A stretch of DNA of 20,305 nucleotides, from positions 1-20,305 of the IMG/VR virus record IMGVR_UViG_3300042301_004044. One strand, written 5' to 3'. The DNA is from a virus. Below are positions 3,961 to 20,305 of this stretch, piece by piece (the first letter of the stretch is position 1; every line of letters begins with the position of its first letter). A program made the position numbers and the translations under genes. A model generated the notes under the pieces. It did not search any database and was not told the origin of the DNA. It saw only the letters and a program-made list of their open reading frames with translations.

Positions 3961-6900
3961 TTATAAAGTGAAAACGTCACTTACTATAGTTTGAACTAAA
4001 ACTTCACCACCAATCGGAGATGTATTACCATACGGTTTATATTGTACTTGTAATCTAAAATTCCCCAATTTATTAATATTAATTAAATTAGTATAATTAG
4101 TCGCAACACTTCCACTACCACCATAATTTGCAATTTCATATGTTTCAGCGTATAAAACTCTATTATTAATAGCTTTTCGTTCGTCAAATGGTTCTTGAGT
4201 TGTTAATTGATATGTAATATATCCTCCATCCGGTTTTTTAATATTATAATAACTCCAACCACTTCCTTGTAACTCAGTGGACTCACCTATTTTAACGAAA
4301 GCAATTTGTTGAGGTGGGAATGTTGGTAATGTTTGACTAGTTGGAACATTGTCAACAGGAACTTGAGATTGATTTGGTAATGTATACCAAACTCTGAACG
4401 GAAATTGTTGTACCACGGGTTGTTCTTGTCCTTTATACGCTTTAAGAACAAACACAATATCAATCTGTGTTTTACCTTCAATTTTAGGGATATTAGTTAT
4501 AAAATAAGATTCAACTTCAGTTAAGTTAATATTAAACTGATTATTTGATACTTGCCCTCCAACACCTATCACACTTTGTGAAATATATTTTCGAGTAACT
4601 TTACCGTTAACTTCCTCTAATTCATATACTACATATTTCATGTCAGGATTAGGTGATAATACCCATCCAGTTTCCTGTGGATTTATCTTAACATTTAATG
4701 ATTGAGTTTTACTATCGTTCAACTGAACCGCGGTACCAATCATAGTAATATTACCCACAGTCTGAGGATTAGTATTTACAGTCTCAGTTTGAGGTGCGTT
4801 TGCAGTTTGATTTTGTGGATTTTGATAACCACCCGGTGATGCTGCAGATGACGCAGTGATTGATGGGTCAAATGTATAATCATTTGTACTTGTTACGGTA
4901 CCATTAGGGGTTACAATAACAATCTTACCTTTATTAACTACAGTACCCGTTCCAATTATTGGTGTGTTAAACCTTAATGTTGTATTATTAAACACCGTGA
5001 ATCCTGTTGCAGGAACACTAACTCCATTAACTGTAACTGAGGTGGCACCATTAAAACTAACTCCATTAACTTGAACTATAGTTCCAGTATTACCTGATAA
5101 AGGAGAGAATGATGTAATAGTTGGTGGAGGACATGCTAATTGTGAGGTAACCGCTGCAGTATTTGGAACACCATTTGTAGTACCTTCACTCTCAACTTTA
5201 TTAATTATATTTTTTAAATCCTCAACAATCGCTTTAGTTGCAACACCGACACTAAGTGCCGAGGTTAACGCTTTATCAAATGTTTCTTTAGTTTCAGTAT
5301 ATTCTTTAGTATGTGAATCATAAGTAGATTCACTAACATTTTTAACCGGCCAATAACAAGCATAATACTTAACAAGACCCAACTCTAATACTTGTGGAAC
5401 TCTTTCCTGTAATCTAGCAGTCATAAACGACACAAATGTATCAATCGATGCAAAATTAGCAACAGGTGTTGTTCCTTTAGTTGAAGGATTTGGATTAAGA
5501 TTTACACAAGAATATGTACTAAGGAACGTATCATCAATCTGACCGTAATCAACATTTAATGGAGCCGTTGCAAAGTTATTATTCCAACCATTAAACACAC
5601 CTAATTTACTATTACTATCTTTTTGGAAAGTTCTAAGATAAGCAATACAATAAATAATTGTTGCCAACTCAGGGTTATTTGGCATAACTCGTTTAAGAAC
5701 ATCCGCAAATTCTTTTTCAGTCATTTTGGTAAGAACTGCATTAGTTGCCTGATATTTTTTAGATAAATAAATTGGAAGTACCTGACTTTCACATTCATTT
5801 GGAGCACCTTTTGTATTATTTGCAGATTGAACTGTATTATTTGTTTTATTAGATTCGGTTGAAGCACTTAATACATTAATTTTATCTTGTTTAATTTTAA
5901 GAAGTGATTCAATTTTTGTTAATAAATTTTGATTAATACTTTGAATAAAACTATCAATTGCGGGTAAATCGTATACTCCTTGTCTAATTCCTTGAAATGA
6001 TGTTTGAAACTGTCCCGGTTGGATACTATGTTCAACTTGTTGTATCATATACGGTCCATTAAACATTGGGACGTGTCTTAAATTAAAATACATTGTTGGT
6101 TGTAATAAGGCATTCCCTAAACAGACAACAGAACATTTGTAACTTCTTTGTTTATAAAGATTATACAAACTTGCATTTTGTGTTGAAACATTTTTACCTG
6201 ATGCTTGTTCAGATATATTTATCTGTGTTGCAATTGATTCTGAAGTTGCAGTACCATTATCCTGAGAAACAGAGAATGAGTAAAACACATTTTGATTTCT
6301 TGTCCCAATATCAACTGTAAATCCAACACATTTATTTGAAACCCCCCAATCTTTTTTACCAACTTGATTTTCAATCAAAGGATTTTCAGAGGCACGACTC
6401 ATATTAAAACCGTCATCTCTAAACCTAAAATTACCTTTTGGTAATTCTAAATATTGAGATGGTTTTCCAACATAAAAACAAACCATTTTAGAACTTGATT
6501 TTCTGTAATCAACATCTAAAAATGTTCCCCATAAACTATTAGCAAACTCTAATGACCCTTCGGCTTTATTTGGTATTGTTGTACCATCAACATCCTGAAC
6601 ATTATAAAAATTAATATATGCCGGTAGATTCATCACAGTGAAATTATTTTTAATCAATAATCCACTGATGAATGTATAAACACTCATAGTTTCGTTTAAA
6701 GATTTTTGACTAAACATACTTCTCATATCAAAAATATCCAATAAGATAGTATCACCAATATTTCTTGACGCTCTATCTAAGAATAGAATATCTTCAAACA
6801 GTGTTTTAGTTTTATAATCCCCTCCAGCAATCCATTTATCATTTAGAGCTTTAAATACTTCATAGTTTTCAACTTTACTTTGTTGTCCATCAATTACAGT

Positions 6901-9900
6901 TTGAATTGTTTTTTCAGGTAATTGTTGTTGGTCCGGTAAATCCCTTCTAACACCATCTAAAACAAGATTTAAAAAATTATCTTGTAACACACTTTCGTTG
7001 GTTAAATACTGATTAATTTGTGCCTGAAATTGAGCAACGGTAGTAGTTGGATTCTTTAATTTTTGAGTAGCATACATTTTAATAATTGGTGCCAATAACA
7101 CAACATTATCAACTGAGAATAAAATATTATTATCAATAAAGAAATCTGTAATATATGAACCCGTGCTACTATATCTAACGTTATTTATTGTTGAAAACCC
7201 AACTTCAGTTTCAAGGGTAATCCAAGCATTTGGATTTAACGATTGAGACTGACTAAGACTTAAAGTACTAGTTCTGGTTGGTAATGTATTTTTAACATAT
7301 GGTTGGAATTGAATTGGGTCAACAACTTTTTGCACATTATTATGTGAAAGATATGAATCAAAAATTCTTCTTCTATAATTTGACGGATTACCATATCTAA
7401 ATAAAACATCATAATTCATGAAATCTTTAATACCCGCTTGGAAAACATTATATTGACTACCAATCGCGTTATTAAAATATTCTGAGTCCAAAACATTTTT
7501 TCCCGGGGCAGCTATTGTCATTAAATTTCTAAATAATGATTGGAAATTTCTAAATGTAGCATTAACTTGAACTACCGATGTTTCAAATTGTGAAACTTCA
7601 GCACCTGTTGAACTATTTGTAATAGGTTTACTAAAATTTAAAAACTCCTGTTCAAACGAATCTAATATTTTTTTCTCAAAAACTGAAAATATTTCTTCAA
7701 TTTTGGTATAGTTATCCCCATTCAAAAAGTATAATGGAGATTGTGTTTCACCACTATTAATTAAATTAATGTAAGAATCCGGTTGGGGGTAGGCAATTTG
7801 ATTACTATCAAAATATCCATAGTTAGGTGCGGACCATAAAGTTCTAACCGAACCATTATAAACACTAGGGTTTGATGTTAAATCAACTTTTGTAATATCA
7901 TCAGTTGTTAAATTACTAATACAAGCAATTACAGATTGATTTAAAGTATTACCAAACGATGGAACTACAAAATAGTCGGTACCCTTAGTATTATTAACAG
8001 GATTACAATTAACCTCAGGATAATAATTACTACTACTAAGTAAAACCGAATATGTCTTAACGTTTAACTCTTTTCCGTTTTGATTAGCATTTATATTAGA
8101 TTGTTTAAAGTTGAACAACTTCATTCCTCCATCAACACTTTTTTGAATTTCAGCGTTAGTGTAATCATCATACAATTCAAACCCATTATAAAAAACATTA
8201 AAATCATTAATCACTTTAGGATAAAATCCAATATTCATATTTGCAGTAATCGATGTCTCTTCTTGTAACGTTATTGAAACAGGGTCACTATTATATTTAA
8301 ACTGATAGTTTTGAGTATTTGAACTCAAAATAGGACTATAATTTGTTGTGTAATCAAAGTTAGTCCAAGCAGTTGTTAAAATATCAACGTTAGATTCTTT
8401 GTATTTTTTATAACGATGCCAAATTGAACCATACTTTAATATCCAAGCATAAGGCAATTTATGAATCGCACCAAATTTTTTCAAACAAGACGAAATGTAA
8501 TCTAATTCGTCAACAAAAGTACCCGTATTAGTTTTATATCTTTCTCTTAAAGTCGCTAATGGTAATGAATTTAAGAAAAGATAAGCCGATTGAACATATG
8601 GATATGGGTCACTTCTTCTATTATTTTGAACACCATTTATTATTGAATTAACAAAATAAGGTGTATTCAACATAGAAGTTGTTGTTTTAAATGGTAACTG
8701 ATTTGTTGGTGTTGTAAAATCACAATACCCCTCAGTTGCAATAAAATTTTTAGGTTCTCGACTCTTGTAATAATCAACAAACCCATAAGGATTTAATAAA
8801 TTAAATTGTACCGCAACTAATGACGGATTTTCATTTTGATAAAATGAAAAATTTGTAACCGGTCTATTGGTCGTAAAATTATAAACATCATTAAAATTTG
8901 AAATAATTTTTCTTGGTTCAAATATTTTTAAAGTTTTCTTTGTATTGTACACTTCATTACCCACCGATTTATTACTTGAACTTAAATTAGTTAAACACCA
9001 CGTAGGGTCTGTATAAGGTAATGTATCCACAACCAATGGTTCATTTGAAGCGTTTGTTAATAATTTCTCAAGTGCTAACGATTTAGTACTTACTTGAGGT
9101 ATTTTTCCAATGTCAGATGTAGATAAAATACTATATGAATTATCCACCAAATTCCTAATATATGGTGTAACAAAGAAATCACGAATGTAATCTTGATACG
9201 CCCTACCAGTACCATTATTCGAAATTGTACTTAGAAACTCAGGATATGAATTTGCCTTTAAATTATAATTTTTAAGTTTTAATGTTAAGTATGGAGAACT
9301 TATTCCAAGTCCTTTTACAATATTATTAACCTCGGCTTCAACATTTAATTTAATTAACTCATCAATCTGATTAGAATTAGCTCTAACTAACCCTGAATAG
9401 TGTGAAGTTAAAAATTGTCTCTCCCAAATTTCATAAAAGAATTTTACCTCTTCTTTATTAACATAAGGTAATCCGGCTGACGGAAATTCAATTGCATTGA
9501 TATTAATTCTATTTGTATCTCTTTCATTATCTAATGGTGGAGGTGCGATTGGTACACTGAATTTTTGAGTAATACCTTTCATATACTCCTCAACAAATTC
9601 AACTTCAGGCCATTTGTCAAACAGATACCCTTGAGTTAAATCAACAACCGTTGGGTCTGCAATATATTTTAATTGGAATCTACCCTTCTTATCTTCCGGT
9701 GTTTCAACAAAGAATAAAGGCCATGGGTAAACCGGTTCTTTAGCGTTTGCTAGTCCTTGATTTGATTCTTGAGCACTTGTAGATATTTCAAAATTTTGTC
9801 TTGTTTCAGAACTTTGAGCAGAAGATGGATTGTCCATAATTGCTTGTTTTCTAACAGGGTCATATTTAACATTCCAAGCATTTGTATGTACATCATCTAA

Positions 9901-11652
9901 TAAACGAATAAATGCCTCGGCAGATGCCATTACAACAGCAATCATATTTCTAACGGTAGGTTTAAACCCTAACCCCGTTGAGGTATCTTCAATTTTTCTC
10001 AATAATTCCGCAGAAATTAATGATTCATATTCTGATAATTTTTTATTTGCATTAGTTTCAAGTAATGAAATTTGACTATCAAATCTATTATTACCTTCAA
10101 ATATAAAATAATTAGTATTTACAACTTCCGGTGTTTTTGTCCCATTAACATCTTTTAACTCAACAACCGGAATACTATTTTGATATATTTGTTCTTTTAG
10201 TAATTTAATATCGTCGTCTGTTGGAGTCTGTTTACCTGTTTGAACCTTAACCGTCTCTTTCCAATTAATAGCACCATCAGCAAGTGGGCTAATAATAAAA
10301 TTATCATATTTAATTGGGTTTGGGATTGGAGACTCTCCATTACTACCTAACGTTGCGTTTTCAGATAAAGCTTTGTTAAATTTAGTAACATAAGTTTTTA
10401 ATAATTCAATTGCGTCATTTTTCGCTTTTGTCTCTAATTTTTTGAAAACGTAAACTCTCTCATTTGTATTATTTAGTATAATTGGTTTTGGGTCAAGATA
10501 AGTATTAAACCAAGAAACATTTGCACCTCTAACCGAAGAAAAATATTGTTTTAAAATTTCTTTATAAGTTCGGATATTTGATAATGGTTCAACTTTGGCT
10601 TTAGGAAACGAATTCATTATATTATTCTCAAACGTACTTAACTTAGTCATTAATTGAAATACCGTTAATTCAGGTAAATCAGGTGCAATTAATCCTTTAG
10701 ATTTATATTCACTATAAACCTCCGCAATTTTTTGATAACCTCTTTCTGAAACTATTTGAGTTGTGATTTCATCACCACTTTGTGAATTATTTTTAGAAAT
10801 AACACCTTGAGCACTTGATTGAGATTCCGCAGCCTTATTAGATTCTTGAGTACCTCCCGGAGTTGTTGAAACATTAAAAGTTTGTCCATACATATGAGGA
10901 ACTGCCAATAAATGTCCCATTGAGATTTCATTAAGGACATTAAACTTATAACCTTTAAACTTTAAACTAACTTGATAATTTCCACTAAATGTGTTAAATG
11001 TTGCGTGAAAAGTTTCTAAATTTAACTGATATCTAATTGCTTGCCCATAAAACCCTTTTAACGTCAAATAAAATGGTGGATATGGTAAATTAAAAAATGC
11101 TGCGTATGGTGAATTATTACCCAATTGAAATAACGCTTTTCCTTGTACATCTTCTAACGTCATACTAACTGAAGGTACAAAAGATGAATTAGTAGTAACA
11201 TTAATTGATGTAATTCCTAATAAACCATTATCAAAAACATCTTTTAAATTTGCAGGAGAACTAATAATATAAGGAGTATCACCGTTTTTTGGGACTACTG
11301 CCTTTTCCATCATTTGATTATCACCTTTGAATTTTGTCGTATTTTCACCAGTTAACTCATCATAATAACCCACACCCAAAAATGAATCTTTGGTTGGTTT
11401 TAAGAAATTCATCTTAGCAACAGAGATTGTTCTTATTCTATCCTCCGGACTTCCACCTACCGCAAGTTTAGTTCTTGGAAGAACTTCCGCCTCCAAATTC
11501 GCGTACATAACTAAACTCTCATGGTCTATTAATCTTTCCTGTATTTTACCAGCAGAGTCAATTGTTTTGTTAGGGTCTACAACAATAATATTATTGTAAT
11601 CAAACTCTACTAATATATCTCCGTTGTTGTCTGCTCTTAAGTTACCTGCCAT
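3961..11652 (-). CDS. Giant (2563-aa) baseplate hub / tail protein with IPT/TIG domain
   Basis: The largest gene of the window, part of the tail tip. Residues about 145-245 are beta-rich and aromatic (YPPFYLTLKGFYG at 191-203), as in hub barrel domains. Around 1863-1887 the motif FNGPYMIQQVEHSIQPGQF followed by TSFQGIR resembles the closing barrel segment of gp27/gpD-type hubs. A helical stretch follows (about 1900-1930). Residues about 1975-2110 form a compact segment including FNGWNNNFAT that loosely recalls glucosaminidase/lysozyme-like folds but lacks an obvious catalytic Glu. Residues about 2175-2263 are a clear IPT/TIG domain (PPPTITSFSPLSGNTGT, then VTVNGVSV, VTPNGTVTS and YTF). The last 300 residues look like two more beta-sandwich modules. 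The rest is Asn/Ser/Thr/Tyr-rich. Its ATG overlaps the gp53-like gene by 11 nt. Hub identity is inferred from motifs and neighbours; the TIG call is firm. A receptor-binding role for the C-terminus is possible. Confidence 0.8.
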   Translation of the reverse strand: MAGNLRADNNGDILVEFDYNNIIVVDPNKTIDSAGKIQERLIDHESLVMYANLEAEVLPRTKLAVGGSPEDRIRTISVAKMNFLKPTKDSFLGVGYYDELTGENTTKFKGDNQMMEKAVVPKNGDTPYIISSPANLKDVFDNGLLGITSINVTTNSSFVPSVSMTLEDVQGKALFQLGNNSPYAAFFNLPYPPFYLTLKGFYGQAIRYQLNLETFHATFNTFSGNYQVSLKFKGYKFNVLNEISMGHLLAVPHMYGQTFNVSTTPGGTQESNKAAESQSSAQGVISKNNSQSGDEITTQIVSERGYQKIAEVYSEYKSKGLIAPDLPELTVFQLMTKLSTFENNIMNSFPKAKVEPLSNIRTYKEILKQYFSSVRGANVSWFNTYLDPKPIILNNTNERVYVFKKLETKAKNDAIELLKTYVTKFNKALSENATLGSNGESPIPNPIKYDNFIISPLADGAINWKETVKVQTGKQTPTDDDIKLLKEQIYQNSIPVVELKDVNGTKTPEVVNTNYFIFEGNNRFDSQISLLETNANKKLSEYESLISAELLRKIEDTSTGLGFKPTVRNMIAVVMASAEAFIRLLDDVHTNAWNVKYDPVRKQAIMDNPSSAQSSETRQNFEISTSAQESNQGLANAKEPVYPWPLFFVETPEDKKGRFQLKYIADPTVVDLTQGYLFDKWPEVEFVEEYMKGITQKFSVPIAPPPLDNERDTNRININAIEFPSAGLPYVNKEEVKFFYEIWERQFLTSHYSGLVRANSNQIDELIKLNVEAEVNNIVKGLGISSPYLTLKLKNYNLKANSYPEFLSTISNNGTGRAYQDYIRDFFVTPYIRNLVDNSYSILSTSDIGKIPQVSTKSLALEKLLTNASNEPLVVDTLPYTDPTWCLTNLSSSNKSVGNEVYNTKKTLKIFEPRKIISNFNDVYNFTTNRPVTNFSFYQNENPSLVAVQFNLLNPYGFVDYYKSREPKNFIATEGYCDFTTPTNQLPFKTTTSMLNTPYFVNSIINGVQNNRRSDPYPYVQSAYLFLNSLPLATLRERYKTNTGTFVDELDYISSCLKKFGAIHKLPYAWILKYGSIWHRYKKYKESNVDILTTAWTNFDYTTNYSPILSSNTQNYQFKYNSDPVSITLQEETSITANMNIGFYPKVINDFNVFYNGFELYDDYTNAEIQKSVDGGMKLFNFKQSNINANQNGKELNVKTYSVLLSSSNYYPEVNCNPVNNTKGTDYFVVPSFGNTLNQSVIACISNLTTDDITKVDLTSNPSVYNGSVRTLWSAPNYGYFDSNQIAYPQPDSYINLINSGETQSPLYFLNGDNYTKIEEIFSVFEKKILDSFEQEFLNFSKPITNSSTGAEVSQFETSVVQVNATFRNFQSLFRNLMTIAAPGKNVLDSEYFNNAIGSQYNVFQAGIKDFMNYDVLFRYGNPSNYRRRIFDSYLSHNNVQKVVDPIQFQPYVKNTLPTRTSTLSLSQSQSLNPNAWITLETEVGFSTINNVRYSSTGSYITDFFIDNNILFSVDNVVLLAPIIKMYATQKLKNPTTTVAQFQAQINQYLTNESVLQDNFLNLVLDGVRRDLPDQQQLPEKTIQTVIDGQQSKVENYEVFKALNDKWIAGGDYKTKTLFEDILFLDRASRNIGDTILLDIFDMRSMFSQKSLNETMSVYTFISGLLIKNNFTVMNLPAYINFYNVQDVDGTTIPNKAEGSLEFANSLWGTFLDVDYRKSSSKMVCFYVGKPSQYLELPKGNFRFRDDGFNMSRASENPLIENQVGKKDWGVSNKCVGFTVDIGTRNQNVFYSFSVSQDNGTATSESIATQINISEQASGKNVSTQNASLYNLYKQRSYKCSVVCLGNALLQPTMYFNLRHVPMFNGPYMIQQVEHSIQPGQFQTSFQGIRQGVYDLPAIDSFIQSINQNLLTKIESLLKIKQDKINVLSASTESNKTNNTVQSANNTKGAPNECESQVLPIYLSKKYQATNAVLTKMTEKEFADVLKRVMPNNPELATIIYCIAYLRTFQKDSNSKLGVFNGWNNNFATAPLNVDYGQIDDTFLSTYSCVNLNPNPSTKGTTPVANFASIDTFVSFMTARLQERVPQVLELGLVKYYACYWPVKNVSESTYDSHTKEYTETKETFDKALTSALSVGVATKAIVEDLKNIINKVESEGTTNGVPNTAAVTSQLACPPPTITSFSPLSGNTGTIVQVNGVSFNGATSVTVNGVSVPATGFTVFNNTTLRFNTPIIGTGTVVNKGKIVIVTPNGTVTSTNDYTFDPSITASSAASPGGYQNPQNQTANAPQTETVNTNPQTVGNITMIGTAVQLNDSKTQSLNVKINPQETGWVLSPNPDMKYVVYELEEVNGKVTRKYISQSVIGVGGQVSNNQFNINLTEVESYFITNIPKIEGKTQIDIVFVLKAYKGQEQPVVQQFPFRVWYTLPNQSQVPVDNVPTSQTLPTFPPQQIAFVKIGESTELQGSGWSYYNIKKPDGGYITYQLTTQEPFDERKAINNRVLYAETYEIANYGGSGSVATNYTNLININKLGNFRLQVQYKPYGNTSPIGGEVLVQTIVSDVFTL

Positions 11653-11965
11653 AATAATAAAAATGATTTTCTACTGCTCCCTTGTAGTCCTGTAATGAAG
11701 GTAGTAATGGAAATGGTATAATCAATACCGCACCATCATATATGGTATTTTCTAACCCCCCATATTGAGGATTAGCCTGAAGTATTAACCACCCAAAATA
11801 TGGTGAGTCATAATAATCCTGAGATACTTTATCCAATCGACTTCTGCCCACTTTATAAATAAATGCCTTATCCGTAGGTTTTTGAGGTAACTGCACGTAA
11901 GGTACAACGGTTTGTTCACCGTTAATTAGAAATTCACTATACCTATTCCAATATTGAAATGCCAT
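11642..11965 (-). CDS. 53: gp53-like baseplate wedge protein with LysM-type fold
   Basis: A 107-residue protein. Residues about 35-85 carry a LysM-like pattern: IYKVGRSRLDKVSQDYYDSP, then WLILQANP and, after a Gly-containing loop, GAVLIIPFPL, where LysM domains end in L.IP. T4 gp53 and related small tail proteins (P2 gpX type) use this fold in the baseplate; in virions it mostly serves as a structural clamp around the hub rather than a free peptidoglycan binder. It is about half the length of T4 gp53, so this is the LysM core with a short N-terminal arm. It is embedded between the two giant tail genes: its ATG shares a base with the upstream stop (TAATG), and its own end overlaps the 2563-aa gene by 11 nt. 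This favours coupled translation and matched amounts of the three proteins. Confidence 0.8.
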   Translation of the reverse strand: MAFQYWNRYSEFLINGEQTVVPYVQLPQKPTDKAFIYKVGRSRLDKVSQDYYDSPYFGWLILQANPQYGGLENTIYDGAVLIIPFPLLPSLQDYKGAVENHFYYYGR

Positions 11966-14900
11966 TAATTAAGTTTTACTTTTGATATGTATGCCCCTGC
12001 TGAAACTCCGTCTTCAGAGTTCCATCTATTATTATCTGTGTTTCTATTTGTTGTATCCGCCAATGATGATATCATAGTTTTTTGTGATTTTTTAGAATTA
12101 TCACTAGCATTAGTTTCTGTTGTATATGTTAACACCCTTGTTTTTTTATCAAATGGTGTATATTTTAAATAATTTTTCAATTTATTTTTTTCAACATCAT
12201 CAACAAACGCCTTTGTAATATTATTTTCATTAACAAATAATGGTCTTGTTTGTGTAACCCAATAATTATCAAATTTAGATTCAACATCATCAAAACCACC
12301 ACTTAATAAACCACTATTATTAATAATATTACCAATCATCGCAGTTTTAAATGTTTCATATTTTTTAGTATCAACAACATCGTCAGAAACTACCATATAA
12401 ACTCTTCTAAAAATATTATCTTCAAATTGAGTATTTTTACTAAATGGTTTAAACACATTTTCAACCGTTATTGTACTATCAACAGATTTACCTTTAGTAT
12501 CTGTTTCAAAAACTAAAACACCTTTATACGTTAACTTATCTGAAGGATTAATAAATTCAGTCTCGCTCCAAATAAGAGCATTAAATTCTTGAATACCATC
12601 GTATATTTTTCTAATGTCGTTATCAAGTTCCATTAGCGTATTAGATGCCCCTGTAGATGTTGTATGAACATCAGATGTCCCACTAGTAACATATACTTTA
12701 ACCGGACCTGATTTTGCTTGATATCCATCAGTACCAGTTGTATAACTTGTAGAACCATTAAAAATCATTATATTAGCTCTTCCAATTGTTTGAATATATG
12801 TTTGTTCTGCAGTTGTAATATCTTGAGTTATTTTTGTAATTGCGTTTTGAAATGAAGCCCTTTTGTTCTTAACTAAATTCTTATAATTTTCTTTTAATTG
12901 ACGAATCACTTTTGGTGAAAAATTACATACAGTTGATGACATGAATTTAATAAAACCTTCATCACCACTTTGAATGTTTGATTCTAACTCACCAAAAATA
13001 GTGTCAAATCTTTTTTCAACATTACTTGGTTTCCCAAATAAAACTGATTTGGTTGGACTAACTCCAAAACTACCTTGTGTGTAAGAACGTTCTAACATCC
13101 ATTGTTGTCTAACCGCATTATTATATTGATTAACACTTTCTTTTGTTTTGTTAACAACCGTTTGGAAATATGTTTGAGTTTCATTGACAAACTTAACCAT
13201 AAAGTCAGAATAACTAAGAGTTCCTGTTTCAGTATTTCCTGATATAACATTTGTTAACGTAACACCAATTGTACTATTATTGTTTTGACCATTCTCAACC
13301 GCGGCTTGATTAATTGCCGGTGCCTGAGGAGGAGATGCCATCGCTAAAAATTCTTTATCTAAAACTTTTAAGAAATCTTCCTGTGCTGTAACATCCGCTC
13401 TATCATCCCAAATTTCAGTATTAGCATAATAATTAAATGTTAACGCATTTTGTAATTTATCAATAGATTCTTTTAATCCACTACCACCAACAAATTTAAA
13501 TGATAAAGTTACGTTTGCAATCATTGGTTGAATACCAATACCTTCAGGGTTAATATCTAATGATTCATATGCAAGACTTAATGATTCAGGTATAATTTTT
13601 GTATTATAAAAATCCCCAATACGTAATACTAATACCGGAGGTGCACCAAATGATGTATTCGTTGCATTATTGTATTGTAATTGTTGTTTACCTGCAATGT
13701 CTTTAATCGTTGGAATTGTATCTCCCGGTCTCATACATTGTTGTAAAAATGTAAGACGAGAGTTTAATCCTTCAGGTGTTGTTGAATGGAATGCCGGTTG
13801 AAAGAATTTCAACTTATCTCTAAGGTTATCATAAACCATAGGTGTCTCAGCTTTGATGGTCTCAAAGTAATCACATTCAGATAATAAAGCTCTTAAAACA
13901 CGTTTAGTAATATTATCCCTTGGTTTATATTCTTGTGACACAACTTCTTCTGTTACTGTTTTTAATACTTTATTTTCCTCAACAATTGTCGTGTATTGTG
14001 CCGGAGGTGTAGTCGTTGGTTGTTTGATTGTTGGTAAAATTGTTTTAACATAACCCCGTCTACAAGCCATCGCGTTTGTTGTCGTAATATCATTAGCACC
14101 AACTTGAGTATCCCCTCCAACAGCATTACTATCATTATCAGAACAATTTACATTTGTACCAATTTTATAAGTTTTAGTTACTGCATCAAATTGTAAAACT
14201 TGAGCATTTTCACCGTATACAGTTGTTGCTTTAAGTAATAATTTTTGTTTTGATAAAAATGGTTTTAACACATCACTTTCTTCAAAAAATTTGATAATAG
14301 AGGCAATTCTTCTTTTAGCCAACTCAACATTATATGATTGAGTCGCAGGTGCAGAACAACTAGCGTCGATAGTAACTGTTATAGTACCATCACTATCTTT
14401 ATATTGTGTTAATTGTTTTGCTAAATCATTAACAAATTCTTTCGCCAAATTATAGTTTGGAATAACTACCGAATCAAAAAACACGTTAGTTTGTTGAGCG
14501 TTTGGTCTAGTATTGTAATATTGCCTATTAGTAGCACTAGTATATCTTGTAAACTCTGTTGTATAATTTGGTATCGCCTCATTTTTTTTAGGAAAATCAT
14601 TTCCAAAATAAAACCCTAATTGTTCGTATTTTTTAAAATCAACGTTAGTGTTTCCTCCACCACCTTCTTGGGATACGTTAACATCCGCACCTGTTGGTGA
14701 ATTAACACCAGTCTGAACAGTTTTTTTAATATACTCAGTTTGTTCTTTAGTCGTTTCTTTTGATGAAATTGCTTCTTGTAAGAGATACAAATCATTTGGA
14801 TTAACCGTGTAGTATTTTTTTGCTAATTCATATAAATCATATTTTCTACAACCGGCAAAGAATGATTCTAAAATACTATCAACTCTAACTTTATTAGTTT

Positions 14901-17019
14901 CATTACTTAATATTTTATTAACAACAACATTTAACGCAGATGGATGGTCAACAACTATCTTCCACGTTAAACTACCTGAACGAGATGTACTTTTATATGT
15001 GTAAATAGGTTCCGGTCTACCAAGAAATTCACTTGGTTGCCAATTCGCTTGAGTTTGTTCAGTAAAAGTTAATCCATAAGGTGCAAACCACATAACTCTA
15101 CCTCCATTAGGACCTCTTTCACATATTGCTAAATCCGCAACTGAAAATCCCGGGGTACTTGAAGTTCTCCAAGCCAAGTTTTCCAATGAAAACATATATT
15201 TTTTGGCATACCCATTATTCATACCACCAATAAGGTTGGTCGAATCTTGTCCTCCTTCTTGTTTGTTTGGTGCGATGTTTAAGTTATAGGTATTATCAAA
15301 TACCGAATCAGAAAATCTTCTACCAGATGTTGTAATACCATCTACTTTTTGTAAATCATTATATTGTAGGTATGGTACATCTTTTGCAAAAATACGACAA
15401 TACTCTGTTCCAACTTCTTGCCCCACAGCACCAACATATCGGTAAACCTGAGAACCTTTAGTTATTTCTTTATATCCATCGTGGAAAACTTTACTAACTT
15501 GGTCTATTGCATTACCTACGTGTTGTAATCTTCGACCTCCTTGAGGTTGACTATTAATCAATCTCTGAGTGTCATCTAAAATAGAACCTCCCTTAAAAGT
15601 CCTGTTTGTTGATTCAGTTGTGTTATATGATGAAGGTTTAAAGTCTTCATCCTCATCTGTAACAACACCACCTAAACCAACTTTTTTTCCGGCATTATCT
15701 TTATACTTTGGAGAAACCCAAGTAAAACCACCTTCAATACCACCACCATTAGAATATGTAGGACCATTAGCTCCTAATCTAACATCTTGACTTGGTCCCT
15801 CATATAATTGAGCTAACTCTTGTGGTCCATATACCGGTGATTGTTGTTCTTTACCAAATTGGTCAACAGGTAAATCACCTCCCGGAGAAAATATTCTTGA
15901 CGGGTCAGAATTTCTTGAACCAACATAAAAATTACTGTTATCCGATAATGTCCCGGTTAACGCACCAGCAAGTCTATCAAATATACCTCTTTCAAAATTT
16001 GGTTTGTATCTGTTATAATCAATGTTTTTAAACAAACGTGATTTTTGACCCGCACCTGTATTGTTATAAAAAATTTGTGACCCAGTTTGACCCGCACCTA
16101 ATAATTGATTAAAAAAGTTTCCAACAGTTGTTCCGGCAATTGCGTTTGTAACTTGTTGAATCGTTGTAGGTTGACCCGGATTAATCATTGGGTCAAAATA
16201 AGACCCCGGAATTAAACTTATAGGTAAAATACTACCACCTAATCTAAGTGCAAAATCCGCAGCTGCGGTTATTGGATTTGCGGGTACCGTTATTTGCCAG
16301 TTCGGTTCTAATATTGGAACTTGTCCTGATATTATATTAATTAAATCAGTACCACTTGTTACATTTAAAATGTTGGCTTGTCCTATCGTCTCTAATCTTA
16401 TTCGAGCCGCAATTCTTTCTTGGAATTCATTTCTAAGTGTTTGTGCACCTAAACGAGCAATATATGAATCCTGACTTAGATTACCATTACTACCGGTTGG
16501 GTTAGTTGATAATAAGATTGATAATGGAGAATACGATGATGCAACGATTGGCCCTGGATATGGTTGTCCATTACCTTGTCTATCTTGGTCAGGCCTAACT
16601 GTTTCTAAACTTGAAAATGATTCTGCAGAGTCAAACACATTTAAACCATCAGCATACGCATTTAATGGTCTCCATAATCTTACCGCGTCATAACCCTCAT
16701 CAACAATATGAGCATCTTGTTGACCTGGTCCATATTCACCTTGATTAGAAATACTATTAGTTAATCCATTTGGGTCAGGAACTTGTTGATACCCACCCTC
16801 ATTACCGTACCTATTTAAAGGATATAGTTGATTTGCTAATGATGGAACATCAATAAGTTGGTCAGGACTATCAATAACCGATAAATCTGACTGAATATGT
16901 TCATACGGAACTTGTACAGAAGGTCTACTTGGAGATTTAGCATAAGGTACTAAATTCCTTGTTATTAATTTTTTTCTGAAACCATCCGAATTTACGTAAT
17001 CTAATGGACTATTTGACAT
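11965..17019 (-). CDS. Giant (1684-aa) baseplate/tail protein with OmpA-like segment
   Basis: A large tail structural protein. Residues 1-560 are Gly/Asn/Gln/Pro-rich and probably extended. Around 640-700 a beta-rich segment (GRVMWFAPYGLTF, then GRPEPIYTY, RSGSLTWKIVVDHPS) resembles tube-like barrels of tail-tube initiator and baseplate proteins. Around 845-940 lies an OmpA-like pattern: FFDSVVIPNYNLAKEFVNDL, then TVTIDAS and YNVELAKRRIASIIKFF (R903/R904 in the OmpA LSxRRA position). A second beta-rich segment with RIGDFYNTKIIPESLSLAYE (1133 on), FKFVGGSGL and ALTFNYYANTEIWDDRADV follows. The C-terminal 450 residues are largely helical. No signal peptide or membrane span is seen. It lies between the tape measure and gp53-like genes, where T4 has the tube-initiator genes 48 and 54, so an enlarged counterpart is a fair guess. 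Structural role likely; exact position inferred. Confidence 0.78.
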   Translation of the reverse strand: MSNSPLDYVNSDGFRKKLITRNLVPYAKSPSRPSVQVPYEHIQSDLSVIDSPDQLIDVPSLANQLYPLNRYGNEGGYQQVPDPNGLTNSISNQGEYGPGQQDAHIVDEGYDAVRLWRPLNAYADGLNVFDSAESFSSLETVRPDQDRQGNGQPYPGPIVASSYSPLSILLSTNPTGSNGNLSQDSYIARLGAQTLRNEFQERIAARIRLETIGQANILNVTSGTDLINIISGQVPILEPNWQITVPANPITAAADFALRLGGSILPISLIPGSYFDPMINPGQPTTIQQVTNAIAGTTVGNFFNQLLGAGQTGSQIFYNNTGAGQKSRLFKNIDYNRYKPNFERGIFDRLAGALTGTLSDNSNFYVGSRNSDPSRIFSPGGDLPVDQFGKEQQSPVYGPQELAQLYEGPSQDVRLGANGPTYSNGGGIEGGFTWVSPKYKDNAGKKVGLGGVVTDEDEDFKPSSYNTTESTNRTFKGGSILDDTQRLINSQPQGGRRLQHVGNAIDQVSKVFHDGYKEITKGSQVYRYVGAVGQEVGTEYCRIFAKDVPYLQYNDLQKVDGITTSGRRFSDSVFDNTYNLNIAPNKQEGGQDSTNLIGGMNNGYAKKYMFSLENLAWRTSSTPGFSVADLAICERGPNGGRVMWFAPYGLTFTEQTQANWQPSEFLGRPEPIYTYKSTSRSGSLTWKIVVDHPSALNVVVNKILSNETNKVRVDSILESFFAGCRKYDLYELAKKYYTVNPNDLYLLQEAISSKETTKEQTEYIKKTVQTGVNSPTGADVNVSQEGGGGNTNVDFKKYEQLGFYFGNDFPKKNEAIPNYTTEFTRYTSATNRQYYNTRPNAQQTNVFFDSVVIPNYNLAKEFVNDLAKQLTQYKDSDGTITVTIDASCSAPATQSYNVELAKRRIASIIKFFEESDVLKPFLSKQKLLLKATTVYGENAQVLQFDAVTKTYKIGTNVNCSDNDSNAVGGDTQVGANDITTTNAMACRRGYVKTILPTIKQPTTTPPAQYTTIVEENKVLKTVTEEVVSQEYKPRDNITKRVLRALLSECDYFETIKAETPMVYDNLRDKLKFFQPAFHSTTPEGLNSRLTFLQQCMRPGDTIPTIKDIAGKQQLQYNNATNTSFGAPPVLVLRIGDFYNTKIIPESLSLAYESLDINPEGIGIQPMIANVTLSFKFVGGSGLKESIDKLQNALTFNYYANTEIWDDRADVTAQEDFLKVLDKEFLAMASPPQAPAINQAAVENGQNNNSTIGVTLTNVISGNTETGTLSYSDFMVKFVNETQTYFQTVVNKTKESVNQYNNAVRQQWMLERSYTQGSFGVSPTKSVLFGKPSNVEKRFDTIFGELESNIQSGDEGFIKFMSSTVCNFSPKVIRQLKENYKNLVKNKRASFQNAITKITQDITTAEQTYIQTIGRANIMIFNGSTSYTTGTDGYQAKSGPVKVYVTSGTSDVHTTSTGASNTLMELDNDIRKIYDGIQEFNALIWSETEFINPSDKLTYKGVLVFETDTKGKSVDSTITVENVFKPFSKNTQFEDNIFRRVYMVVSDDVVDTKKYETFKTAMIGNIINNSGLLSGGFDDVESKFDNYWVTQTRPLFVNENNITKAFVDDVEKNKLKNYLKYTPFDKKTRVLTYTTETNASDNSKKSQKTMISSLADTTNRNTDNNRWNSEDGVSAGAYISKVKLN

Positions 17020-17046: not shown

Positions 17047-18870
17047 TTAATAAGTTTTTGATTGAGGTTCTTTTAAGTTATCCGGAGTTGTTAATCTAAT
17101 AATGTAGTCTTTAAATCTAGAGTCGTTAAATACAGAATCAATAAATTGTTTTCCTTGTTCCGTACTCATACCGGTAGGTGTTTGAATATCAACTGTTATT
17201 TTACCACCAACATCAACAGTTCCTTTAGTTGTTTGAGTTGTTACATTATTTTGAGTGTTTTGTAATGTTTCCATTTTATTTCCAACAGACGAACTTAATG
17301 GTGCAGATGAAGTAGATGTTTTACCTCCGTAAGATTCAACCACTTTGTTAACACCACTTTTAAATGCAATCTCCCCACTTGTTTGATTTGTTAGTTTTGC
17401 TGCAATATTTTCACCAACCTCTTTTAATACCTCAGTAAATCTTTTTTGAGATGCGTCTAAAGTAGTTCCAAGACCATTTAACCCAGTTGATAATACATCA
17501 GTGAGAGGTTTGTTACCCTCTTTTAAATCTTTAGCAACATTACCTAAAGTTGTTAATACTCCTTCACTTAAATCTCTAAAATCTTTCGCTTTAAATGCAT
17601 CTGAAGTTTCACCAAGAACTGTCTTAGCGGCTCTTTGAGCACCCGCAATCCCTTTTGTTACTTGTTTTGGACTTGTTATTCCTTGAACAAATGCCTCTCT
17701 TAAACCTCCAACGGCCGCTAAAGTGGCTTTATCAATATCTAATTGTGCAAATGCAATCTCCTCAAGAGTTTTAGGTCCGGTTTTTTGTTGTTCTATTAAT
17801 TTATCAAATTCAGGTTGTGTTAATTCCGCTAATTCTTTTTTGGTACCATCCTCTAATTTTACCATGTACTTACCATCTTGCATTGTCGCAATATTTGCCA
17901 AATATTGTTTGTCCTCTTCACTTCCAATTGTAAGACCTGCCTGATTAATTGCTGATAGTCTTTCATCTAACTCAGCGGCAGCAAGACCCATTTTACTTAA
18001 AGTCCCTCTCGCAATTCCCGCTTGGTCTTCCATCTCTCTCAAGGTTAAAACACCTTGAGGATTAATTTTAAACGTTTTTGTCTCTTCGTCAAAGTAGGTA
18101 AATTGTTTTGCAACCTTAGCTAAACTATCTTGTAACCCTGAAGGGTCATTAATTGATTGATTCATTAATTGGAATGGGTCCACTAAATCCCCTGAAGCAA
18201 CACCTAATCTTTGAAATGCAGAAGCAACTTCAATTGCTTTATCAGGACTAAATAACGAATCCGCAAAATTTAAGGTTGCACTCATATCCACTCTTAACAT
18301 TGAAGCCTTTGCCGCCATTTTTGCCATACCTTCAACTCCTCCTTGGAATTGGTATCGATTCATTTGGTCCATATTTTTAGCAACATCACTCATAACCGCT
18401 TTGGTGTTACCACCAATACTTCGAATATAATTAACGGACCCTTCTAATTGTTTCCCCATTTGTTCAAGACCAACACCAACATCTAAAAATGAATTAGTTA
18501 AGCTTTCTGCTGAACCACCTACAACTTCCACCGCTGCGTAAAGTTTTTCAACATCTTCGGTATTTGCAATAATATTACGTCTTGATGCATTGGCAATTTC
18601 AATCATTGTTTTTTGAACATCAGCAGTAGTACCCCCTAAACGAGTAATTCTTGGCACCGCATCAGATACCGCACCCATCAATTCGGATAATCGTTCTTGT
18701 CCTTGACCAAAAGTTTTATTAATCTCTACAGAAGTTCTGTAACTATTCTCAATAGCTTTTGTTAAGACTTGCCAATCAACTGTCGCCTCTTTTGCAAGTT
18801 TCTGTGCAAATGATAAATCTGGAGTAGTACTTGGAGTTGAACTAGGATTAGTATTAGGTGTTGTTGCCAT
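17047..18870 (-). CDS. Tail tape-measure protein (gp29-like)
   Basis: A 607-residue, largely alpha-helical protein following the tube and chaperone genes, the standard place for the tape measure that sets tail length and lies inside the tube. A short Thr/Pro/Ser-rich N-terminus (1-18) leads into long helices rich in Ala, Glu, Lys and Gln (AQKLAKEATVDWQVLTKAI; EVASAFQRLG). The C-terminal part has an Asn/Gln/Thr/Ser-rich linker (about 510-550) and a small ordered end (DVGGKITVDIQTPTG, then FIDSVFNDSRFKDYI). Length is close to T4 gp29 (590 residues). At about 0.15 nm per residue it predicts a tail near 90 nm, which is inference. No peptidase motif and no clear membrane segment are seen. The start ATG is 20 nt after a TATTTATA motif and follows a hairpin, so it may have its own late promoter. 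Confidence 0.82.
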   Translation of the reverse strand: MATTPNTNPSSTPSTTPDLSFAQKLAKEATVDWQVLTKAIENSYRTSVEINKTFGQGQERLSELMGAVSDAVPRITRLGGTTADVQKTMIEIANASRRNIIANTEDVEKLYAAVEVVGGSAESLTNSFLDVGVGLEQMGKQLEGSVNYIRSIGGNTKAVMSDVAKNMDQMNRYQFQGGVEGMAKMAAKASMLRVDMSATLNFADSLFSPDKAIEVASAFQRLGVASGDLVDPFQLMNQSINDPSGLQDSLAKVAKQFTYFDEETKTFKINPQGVLTLREMEDQAGIARGTLSKMGLAAAELDERLSAINQAGLTIGSEEDKQYLANIATMQDGKYMVKLEDGTKKELAELTQPEFDKLIEQQKTGPKTLEEIAFAQLDIDKATLAAVGGLREAFVQGITSPKQVTKGIAGAQRAAKTVLGETSDAFKAKDFRDLSEGVLTTLGNVAKDLKEGNKPLTDVLSTGLNGLGTTLDASQKRFTEVLKEVGENIAAKLTNQTSGEIAFKSGVNKVVESYGGKTSTSSAPLSSSVGNKMETLQNTQNNVTTQTTKGTVDVGGKITVDIQTPTGMSTEQGKQFIDSVFNDSRFKDYIIRLTTPDNLKEPQSKTY

Positions 18871-18900: not shown

Positions 18901-18924
18901 AAAGGACTGAGTTTTCAGTCCTTT
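18901..18924 (-). terminator. Hairpin after the chaperone/59-aa genes
   Basis: Perfect 10-bp stem AAAGGACTGA (18901-18910) with TCAGTCCTTT (18915-18924) and a 4-nt loop. On the minus strand the stem runs into TTTTGTATTTATAG, an imperfect U-tract, so termination may be partial. The TGA stop of the 59-aa ORF (18917-18915) lies inside the stem, so ribosomes finishing that ORF would open the hairpin. The arrangement could link translation of the small ORF to read-through into the tape-measure gene. Confidence 0.65.
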
Positions 18925-19094
18925 GAGTTATCTTCAATCCACTTATCTAATAAATATTTCCTAACAAATAGTGGCATTGCTTGAAAATCTTGATAAGTTA
19001 TGTTCATTAATTTGTTCAAATAGTAGAATTCATCTATCTGTCCTTTTCTATAATCAGAAGAAAGGACGAAAAAAGTCAACCCCAAATCCGACAT
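18915..19094 (-). CDS. 59-aa ORF overlapping the chaperone gene; possible second tail-assembly protein or frameshift extension
   Basis: An open frame of 59 codons (ATG 19094-19092 to TGA 18917-18915), offset from the 247-aa chaperone frame and overlapping its last 41 bases. The peptide looks like a real protein: YRKGQIDEFYYLNKLMNITY, then QDFQAMPLFVRKYLLDKWIE. The pattern of a helical, aromatic segment followed by MP..VRKYLL resembles small proteins found right after gp26-like genes in T4-type phages. Three readings are possible. It may start at ATG 19094, at the internal ATG 19007 (30 aa), or be reached from the chaperone frame by a +1 or -2 shift on the T6 run at 19069-19074, giving a fusion of about 293-294 residues. 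The last would match the short/long chaperone pairs of many tailed phages. Coding is likely because it fills the only otherwise empty space between the chaperone and tape measure; the expression mode is unknown. Confidence 0.68.
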   Translation of the reverse strand: MSDLGLTFFVLSSDYRKGQIDEFYYLNKLMNITYQDFQAMPLFVRKYLLDKWIEDNSKD

Positions 19095-19797
19095 TAACTG
19101 TCATCTTTTCTCCTGATGGGGTAATTACAACTCTACTTAAATCTAATCTTGGTTCATTATCATTCATAAATTTTCTTATGAATTTTGAATCCAAAATTGG
19201 CATTTGTTCGACAAATTTAGCTATTTCTGCTTTATCAGTAGTTCCATTTACTTCTATAATCTCTTTTTGTAATCTCCAAGTAATTTTTGGAACTACTCTC
19301 CCTTTAGGATATGATTCTTCCAACTTACTTATTTCTAAAACTTCCCCATAAGTTAATGGTCTTAATTTAACTGTTACCTGTGATTTAGGTAATTGAGCAA
19401 TAAATGTTCCGTCCTCATTTGGTGTTTGACCATTAATAACATTCAATTCATCTAAAGGAACTGTTGTTTGAAATGGTTTTTTTGTTGAAGGGTCGATTAA
19501 ATTTAAATTAATTTCCGGTCCAAAACCAGTGTTTCTTAAAAATATTAAAACGGCTTCAACATCACCTTCTAACATATCCTCAACCTTAAGGTCCGGTTCA
19601 TAGATTTTACTTCTCAATAGTGTTGTGGTCATATCATTTCCACCCCCCATTAAAATGTTTTCATCATTAGCTGTTAGATATCCTACCTTAATAGATTTCT
19701 TTTTGTTTTTATAAAATATTCCTCCCGATGGTAGTGGTACTACATCGTGTGGTAACGTAAAATTTTGTTGTCCGTATTCGATTTCTTGATTTTCCAT
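19054..19797 (-). CDS. gp26-like baseplate-hub / tail assembly chaperone
   Basis: A 247-residue protein resembling T4 baseplate-hub assembly proteins (gp26/gp51 type), which occupy the tail-assembly-chaperone slot between tube and tape measure. Signatures: an N-terminal LPSGGIFYKN (22-31) followed by a basic strand and LTANDENIL (41-49), matching the 'LPS.G..Y ... dE.iL' opening of this group. A helical segment DVEAVLIFLRNTGFG (79-93) follows, then a beta segment with KLRPLTYGEVLEI (144-156), a long helical part (170-215) and a closing strand SGEKMTVNVGFGVDFFRPFF (228-247). It would bind tape-measure or hub proteins before assembly and is not expected in the mature virion. The start ATG is three bases after the U-tract of the upstream terminator, an unusually tight fit. 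The last codons contain the T6 run where a frameshift into the 59-aa frame is conceivable. Family call moderately firm; partner inferred. Confidence 0.75.
   Translation of the reverse strand: MENQEIEYGQQNFTLPHDVVPLPSGGIFYKNKKKSIKVGYLTANDENILMGGGNDMTTTLLRSKIYEPDLKVEDMLEGDVEAVLIFLRNTGFGPEINLNLIDPSTKKPFQTTVPLDELNVINGQTPNEDGTFIAQLPKSQVTVKLRPLTYGEVLEISKLEESYPKGRVVPKITWRLQKEIIEVNGTTDKAEIAKFVEQMPILDSKFIRKFMNDNEPRLDLSRVVITPSGEKMTVNVGFGVDFFRPFF
19069..19074 (-). other. Possible slippery run (T6) at the chaperone 3' end
   Basis: Six consecutive T on the minus strand, read as Phe-Phe (codons 242-243) in the chaperone frame and lying within the 41-nt overlap with the 59-aa frame. A P-site Phe-tRNA on TTT would keep full pairing after a +1 or -2 slip, and either shift enters the 59-aa frame. 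No stimulatory structure was identified apart from the hairpin at 18901-18924, which is about 145 nt downstream and probably too far. Confidence 0.35.
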
Positions 19798-19800
19798 ATA

Positions 19801-19835
19801 AAAAAATAACCGTAAAGTTTATGTCTTTACGGTTA
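19801..19835 (-). terminator. Intrinsic terminator between tail tube and chaperone
   Basis: Perfect 11-bp stem TAACCGTAAAG (19807-19817) with CTTTACGGTTA (19825-19835) and a 7-nt loop. On the minus strand it is followed by six T (19806-19801), giving a textbook terminator. It ends transcripts of the tube gene, which is needed in many copies. The U-tract ends three bases before the chaperone ATG (19797), so chaperone mRNA must come from read-through or carry this hairpin in its leader. Confidence 0.85.
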
Positions 19836-19868: not shown

Positions 19869-20305
19869 TTAGTAAACTAACACACATCTGTCCATTCTTA
19901 ATGATACACTAATATCTGCAAGACCATCAGTACTATACCCTAACGAACCAAAATCAACACTAGTTAAGAATGTTCCGTATAGAATCCATTTTTCAACAAC
20001 AACTCCTGTTGGGTCTAACATTTCTAAGTCTATGTCTTTTTTATAACCAGCGGCGTATCCCATACGTCCTGTAACAGATTCAGCGTGTAAACGAACCCAC
20101 TCCATAAGAGCCTGTGCCGCAGACGGTCCAATTGGGTCTCTAAATTTAACAGGTATTTCATCCCAATTAAATCTACCTGCAACATAAGTTGAGGTATTTA
20201 AAAATTGAATCTCTGTTGAAGCAATTTTAATTTTAGGTCTCGCAGTACTTTCTACAAACCATTCGTTAATCCCTAAGCTTGATGGAAACCTTAGTATGAA
20301 TCGAT
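19869..20305 (-). CDS. 19: Tail tube protein, gp19-like (partial, N-terminus off window)
   Basis: The C-terminal 144 residues of a T4 gp19-type tube protein, which stacks in hexameric rings to form the DNA channel of the tail. The first whole codon is at 20303-20301, with no start before the edge. The reading runs RFILRFPSSLGINEWFVEST, then YVAGRFNWDEIPVKFRDPIG, and from 20105 MEWVRLHAESVTGRMGYAAG. The later part GYKKDIDLEMLDPTGVVVEK, then WILYGTF, and DISVSLRMDRCVLVY at the end match the gp19 pattern of LDPTG.V.E.W.L.G.F and a last strand of alternating hydrophobics with D.C.L.Y. The internal ATG at 20105 is not the start, because conserved tube sequence continues upstream of it. T4 gp19 has 163 residues, so only about 15-25 are probably missing. 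A strong terminator follows the stop. A sheath gene would be expected upstream, outside the window. Confidence 0.9.
   Translation of the reverse strand, partial: RFILRFPSSLGINEWFVESTARPKIKIASTEIQFLNTSTYVAGRFNWDEIPVKFRDPIGPSAAQALMEWVRLHAESVTGRMGYAAGYKKDIDLEMLDPTGVVVEKWILYGTFLTSVDFGSLGYSTDGLADISVSLRMDRCVLVY

Follow-up and report, generated by a model that had tools for sequence, protein, structure and literature searches.

Tail assembly chaperones of the virus studied here very probably come in two forms, of 247 and 293 amino acids, both produced from one message, the longer of which would arise when ribosomes slip +1 at UUU_C close to the end of the chaperone gene. The locus lies in a window of 20,305 nucleotides, meaning the whole stretch of DNA that was analysed, and is encoded on its minus strand, as are all features described below. 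An earlier note, made from the letters of this DNA alone, had suggested a programmed frameshift at this place, and the suggestion holds as the best reading of a conserved second frame, the lack of any generally usable start for it and a conserved site, to which the recurrence of the same domain in the -1 frame of other relatives is added. We infer that the shift takes place, and likewise how often it does so, at which codon, and what each of the two forms does.

The short chaperone (TAC-N or gpG-like, 247 aa) is encoded at 19054..19797, ends in VDFFRPFF and is closed by the stop TGA at 19054..19056. Profile searches match it to PF12322 (T4_baseplate) with 29.8 bits, above the cut-off of 24.5, and to phrog_150 (baseplate hub) with 47.8 bits (E 2.5e-12). 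T4 gp26 and gp51 both match the same profiles, so that the protein is, as judged from sequence, a chaperone of the T4 gp26/gp51 family, in agreement with the gp26-like identity given to it before. The gene is situated between a gp19-like tail tube gene, truncated by the end of the window (19869..20303; phrog_4542, E 5.2e-23), and a likely tape measure gene at 17047..18870. The latter is named by position and by the annotation of relatives' records, a tape measure gene being annotated at the corresponding place in phages immuto, SP-15 and LIS04; profile searches with it gave no match better than E 0.019. Two very large tail-region proteins are also encoded, at 3961-11652 (2563 aa) and 11965-17019 (1684 aa), and profile searches with the 1684-aa protein gave nothing convincing in the way of families beyond a weakly matching OmpA-like stretch (E 0.1).

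Across the end of the chaperone gene runs a second frame, offset by +1, which spans 59 codons (19094..18915) when counted from ATG 19094. It overlaps the chaperone gene by 41 nt from this ATG and by 47 nt over the whole open frame, and the two share a run of six T at 19069-19074, while the other overlapping genes of the window have overlaps of 1 and 11 nt. These measurements agree with those of the earlier note, as does the need for a +1 or -2 shift to enter the second frame. The long overlap is real but, taken as a sign of function, lies within chance, since 16% of random window positions and frames, real genes included, are equally open; the case rests on conservation in relatives. The part of the second frame that would be added to the chaperone, a T-like domain of 50 codons (VLSSDYRK...NSKD) and its stop, occupies 18915..19067. 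Public records of immuto and SP-15 annotate a fragment that begins inside this extension, and that of LIS04 leaves it unannotated (L165 3324-3434; L169 3264-3383; L168 3208-3439); the present reading corrects these annotations, in which the extension is missing or shortened.

Close relatives were collected in a first scan limited to the best 80 loci (74-100% identity) and a further scan that brought the number to 159 loci, six of which were left out. Among the matches listed there are 61 distinct junctions of the window family, and in all 61 the chaperone frame keeps TTT CGY CCT TTC TTC TRA, with TGA or TAA as its stop, while the +1 frame stays open and reads F(V/A)LSS(D/N)YR(K/R) before entering a domain that carries the motif MPxFxRKYLL. 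Selection was measured on 50 representatives below 97% identity, drawn from 72 distinct full-length sequences among the matches listed, and the counts out of 50 below refer to these. Over the 14 codons preceding ATG 19007, pN/pS is 0.106 in the +1 frame, and each of the two remaining frames gives a far higher value (1.04 and 1.42); the chaperone gene gives 0.222. Such values indicate strong purifying selection on the +1 frame upstream of ATG 19007 in the window lineage; the second frame therefore rises above chance, and the codons between the chaperone stop and ATG 19007 would therefore be translated. Synonymous conservation over the last eight chaperone codons ranks 6th of 240 gene windows, which is raised, with other windows higher still.

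The rival that the earlier note had named is an independent start at ATG 19094 or 19007, to which a TTG can be added as a third candidate; the extension would then be a small gene in its own right. Some observations would suit this rival, as every one of the 50 representatives has ATG 19094 (19092..19094), and upstream in the open frame an ATG and/or TTG occurs in 46 of them. However, ATG 19094 straddles AAT GTN, an Asn-Val codon pair of the chaperone that it simply accompanies, is lost in one further relative (L106), and is separated from the domain by a stop that closes the frame in 5/50, and it was rejected as a general start. In 4/50 the open stretch up to the chaperone stop holds no ATG, GTG or TTG. 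ATG 19007 (19005..19007) was likewise rejected, the position being ATG in just 29 representatives (TTG in 13, TTA in 6 and CTG in 2) with strong amino-acid constraint already upstream of it. A conserved and usable start, the mark of an independent overlapping gene, was not found for this frame; what is seen is the arrangement of a G/GT locus, a conserved out-of-frame extension that lacks such a start. Re-initiation driven by a Shine-Dalgarno sequence is unlikely too, because a Shine-Dalgarno-like motif precedes none of the 10 window genes. Initiation at a start of its own is, on all the counts given here and below, quite improbable.

The same question was taken to the wider family. Among phage records read by eye, the domain follows at +1 in LR756508, Mel-JY01, immuto, SagM-GXN1, LIS04 and SP-15 and at -1 in LR756511, Atu_ph07, PA5oct, RAS14, Sf-FS3, RL38J1, IC12 and Cygsa01, with T TTT TTN in every one of the -1 records except Cygsa01. 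With these records and the window as seeds, a profile of the extension was built and run on 372 loci among the matches listed, leaving out seven loci without a chaperone-frame stop, 132 duplicate junctions, one locus whose contig ends at the stop (L074) and three without a profile match. These three (L269, L273 and L282) have a +1 frame open past the stop and stayed unmatched on rescoring. In the 229 distinct junctions kept, the domain lies at +1 in 162 and at -1 in 67, and 64 of the latter carry the heptamer T TTT TTN in frame. When the junctions were rescored with an enlarged profile, the frame came out identical for 229/229; 14 of the rows had themselves supplied profile seeds, and the extension match was weaker than E 0.01 in 10 rows, or 5 after rescoring. 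A later set of 111 loci (10 left out, 13 duplicates) yielded 88 distinct junctions among the matches listed, one of them a repeat from the first survey, with 20 at +1, 66 at -1, one unclear and one unmatched; T TTT TTN is present in 65 of the 66, and 14 of 100 matched loci scored weaker than E 0.01. No ATG, GTG or TTG leads into the domain at 50 of the 229 junctions listed and at 31 of the 87 matched junctions of the later set, which counts further against a start of its own. Since each scan returned the best 80 loci at most, the samples lean towards near relatives and the frequencies are not those of nature; 1275 phage records match T4 gp26, and frames were read in the few that were fetched. 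A tblastn search of phage records with the small domain gave a chance-level match alone (E 0.7), and a first scan of genome contigs with A1 gave no relative.

Cyanophage-type loci offer some support for internal initiation: 57 of the 59 distinct junctions listed have an ATG close to the stop, and one record annotates the small frame as a gene of its own; because of that ATG, both routes are possible there. Eleven distinct cyanophage-type junctions of the later set (L469-L484) are unlike the 57 in having T TTT TTC and no ATG, GTG or TTG for the small frame. A few loci depart from the general picture. L223 sits within the +1 clade yet reads -1, perhaps through an error of assembly; in the later set L443 has no match and L485 carries the domain in the chaperone frame beyond a stop. 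For L223 and L485 the departure would be either genuine or a product of assembly. A quick tree of 86 rows requires at least three changes of the label for shift direction, one of which is a single contig, and T4 gp26 and gp51, like the window family, attach on long branches. A single clade for all +1 rows was not rejected on this tree (p-AU 0.174), and the number of direction changes is therefore uncertain.

The proposed shift site, TTT TTT C, is placed at 19068..19074, where the second TTT and the CCT that follows the Arg codon are found in all 50 representatives. The earlier note had proposed checking whether the T6 run and the frame offset are conserved in homologues: it is not the six-T run that is kept but, in most, UUU followed by C or U, and the +1 offset, constant in the window family, gives way to -1 in other relatives. 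Among the 162 +1 junctions listed, 77 have TTT_C, 74 TTT_T, 5 CTT_T, 3 TTT_A and 1 TTC_A, with two lacking such a site, so that UUU_Y or CUU_U stands at 156. A shift of -2 on the T run, the direction known from phage Mu, would reach the same frame, and the six T of the window permit re-pairing two bases back. It fits poorly with the family, because 20 of 160 aligned +1 sites listed lack six T, among them the GAT TTC TTT CGY of some window relatives and the TTT CTT TGG of immuto-type phages; at TTC TTT CGY and TTT CTT TGG re-pairing at -2 fails and at +1 (UUU_C to UUC, CUU_U to UUU) it works, and +1 is therefore preferred. The choice left between +1 and -2 is in this way settled towards +1, with a -2 shift being highly improbable. 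Slippage of RNA polymerase on the same run, adding or dropping bases, would also need the six T that the window has, and suffers from the same sites, the run being short and interrupted in some relatives of identical geometry; it is hardly credible as the source of the longer protein.

For a +1 shift by the ribosome, the preferred model puts the slip at a putative position, on the second UUU while CGT occupies the A site. Slipping at some other codon of the overlap, for instance CCU_U or the stop (UUC_UGA), is unlikely. It could draw on CCT TTC TTC being invariant in 50/50 and on the TGA or TAA stop of the window-family junctions, but such invariance is expected here because of double coding; moreover, distant +1 relatives mostly keep UUU_Y while the downstream sequence varies (TGG CCT AAG TAA, CAC GCC CGA...), and UUC to UCU re-pairs badly. 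Codon usage gives a divided answer as to a slow A site. CGT makes up 25 of the 208 Arg codons of the window and CGC none, despite which CGC occupies the Arg codon of the site in 21/50 representatives; the slow-codon argument cuts both ways, because GTC, the codon of the +1 frame, is rare as well, at 11 of 445 Val codons.

Features of the RNA around the locus were also considered. A GGG glycine codon at 19081-19083 and the following G (19080..19083) form a candidate stimulator, GGG being found in all 50 representatives although it accounts for 14% of Gly codons in the window, and four different codons being used for the Gly two codons before it. Alignment folding of 27 sequences pairs GGG with the CGYCCT that surrounds the site, in a stem where no base pair has both partners changed; GGG could pair in this way or act as a stimulator. 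Beyond this stem and a far hairpin, the folding of these 27 sequences revealed no convincing stimulatory structure. The hairpin after the extension (18901..18924), whose 5' arm contains the extension's stop, shows double changes in the same alignment, from G-C to A-U in 8/27 sequences and from A-U to G-C in 1/27, and where the stop alternates between TGA and TAA the 3' arm changes to match, in 8/27. Lying between the extension and the tape measure gene, it is probably a terminator or an RNA-stabilising hairpin. A second strong hairpin with a T tail is located between the tube and chaperone genes, at 19807-19835.

The fusion was modelled with AlphaFold2 at a mean pLDDT of 90.8, in which the extension is predicted to form three helices (247-264, 268-273 and 276-290) behind a weaker linker at the shift site. 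Plain Foldseek against the PDB returned no match with E <= 0.001, and searching solved structures by sequence, once with T4 gp51 and once with the window family, brought nothing useful. Among 980 re-aligned PDB chains the best two were YqbN (3klu; Z 5.8, rmsd 3.5, 84 aligned), which we take to be of the tail assembly chaperone class, and 2ob9, by its title the tail assembly chaperone of HK97 (Z 5.0, rmsd 4.8, 94 aligned), where a Z below 8 can be coincidental and a Z of 5-6 can reflect a common arrangement.

According to the mechanism proposed, most ribosomes would read to the TGA and release the 247-aa short form. In some, with the arginine codon CGT waiting in the A site, the Phe-tRNA on the second UUU in the P site would re-pair on UUC, and reading would continue in the +1 frame for 50 codons to give the 293-aa long form with its added three-helix domain. 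In lambda the G part binds the tape measure and the T part the tube subunit (PMC5009743). By analogy, the short form would act as gpG does and coat the tape measure protein, the extra domain of the long form would recruit the tail tube subunit in the manner of gpGT, and neither form would be present in the virion. The host of the window virus is likely to belong to the Bacteroidota. All 12 usable loci from binned genomes among the matches listed read +1, and 6 of the 14 listed are labelled Winogradskyella, Flavobacteriales or Sphingobacteriales, all of them Bacteroidota, a labelling to be taken with caution since the binning of phage contigs is unsafe; phage immuto, a +1 relative, infects Flavobacterium, and the 10 window genes lack Shine-Dalgarno-like motifs.

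T4 itself shares with the window a protein family, that of gp26, gp51 and the window gene, gp51 having an added C-terminus. The last 49 aa of gp51 match phrog_634 (7.9e-8), and the small frame of cyanophages falls in the same family (4.7e-25) at overlapping profile positions. No PHROG match was obtained with the window extension alone, and its fusion to the chaperone raises the phrog_150 score from 47.8 to 53.6 bits. When T4 pieces were scored against a profile built from 180 extensions, the gp51 tail came out best (4e-5); the next non-gp51 piece reached 0.061, and the best of 200 shuffles 0.23. T4 gene 26 ends in GAG TTC TTT GAG TTA CTA TAA, with gene 25 directly after it. T4 thus differs from the window in having two separate genes, short and long, rather than one gene and an out-of-frame extension, and judging by these comparisons it appears to use them in place of a shift.

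Parts of this are already in print. T4 is the stated exception to the G/GT scheme in PMC5009743; some T4-like phages are described as having a short gene and a longer fusion gene (PMC10274946, citing Vladimirov et al., 2022), poly-T signals for -1 shifting are reported in T4-like phages (PMC12846349, citing the same work), and another mechanism for T4-like phages is proposed in the title of Vladimirov et al. (2022). We infer that the short and long genes meant there, as relayed by these citing texts, are 26 and 51. The tie between the T4-like group and the lambda scheme that the earlier note had anticipated is accordingly new in part only: short and long genes and -1 poly-T signals precede it in print. 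In the literature searched, which included few subscription papers, gp26/gp51-type chaperones were nowhere described as using a +1 shift.

On balance the evidence leans, by a little, towards frameshifting being the ancestral and still widespread route to the long chaperone across the gp26/gp51 family, with the two-gene state of T4 derived. The direction would have changed within one orthologous gene, from one to the other of -1 on U UUU UUN and +1 on UUU_YRN, the fusion staying the same, and the +1 clade, which includes some phages infecting Bacteroidota, would shift at a sense-codon UUU_Y site with neither Shine-Dalgarno help nor a stop in the A site. If true, the departure from the G/GT scheme is confined to the branch of T4 itself, while +1 shifting supplies the long chaperone in a large set of phages. 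Both directions in one gene family would then amount to a natural experiment on the evolution of slippery sites, and a +1 site as simple and conserved as this one would be useful material for studies of mechanism.

Among known systems, the window resembles in layout lambda gpG/gpGT and the wider G/GT class, with which it shares a locus between tube and tape measure genes and a short form with an out-of-frame extension; the HK97 tail assembly chaperone is also among the two top structural matches of the fusion. The likeness is one of layout, and the signals differ, a -1 heptamer in lambda and +1 at UUU_C here. With its +1 frame the window falls outside the lambda-type class, which shifts -1 on X XXY YYZ, and other members of the same protein family fall within it. 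For Vandenendeviridae and Andersonviridae, PMC12846349 describes TAC-N/TAC-NC made by a -1 shift at GTTTTT. As in the window, their chaperone gene has a poly-T site at its end, and the extension is one that records omit or call a separate gene; they differ in the -1 direction and in belonging to other phage families. SPP1 is a known case of +1 shifting. Listeria phage PSA is reported to have a +1 shift in structural proteins, and the haloarchaeal myovirus HSTV-2 a 'very likely +1' shift (PMC5009743). All three share with the window the +1 direction in phage structural or tail genes, but in other protein families, the site of the window being a Phe UUU with a sense codon after it. Systems of this kind are known; what appears to be new is the +1 class, the site it uses and a switch of direction inside a single family.
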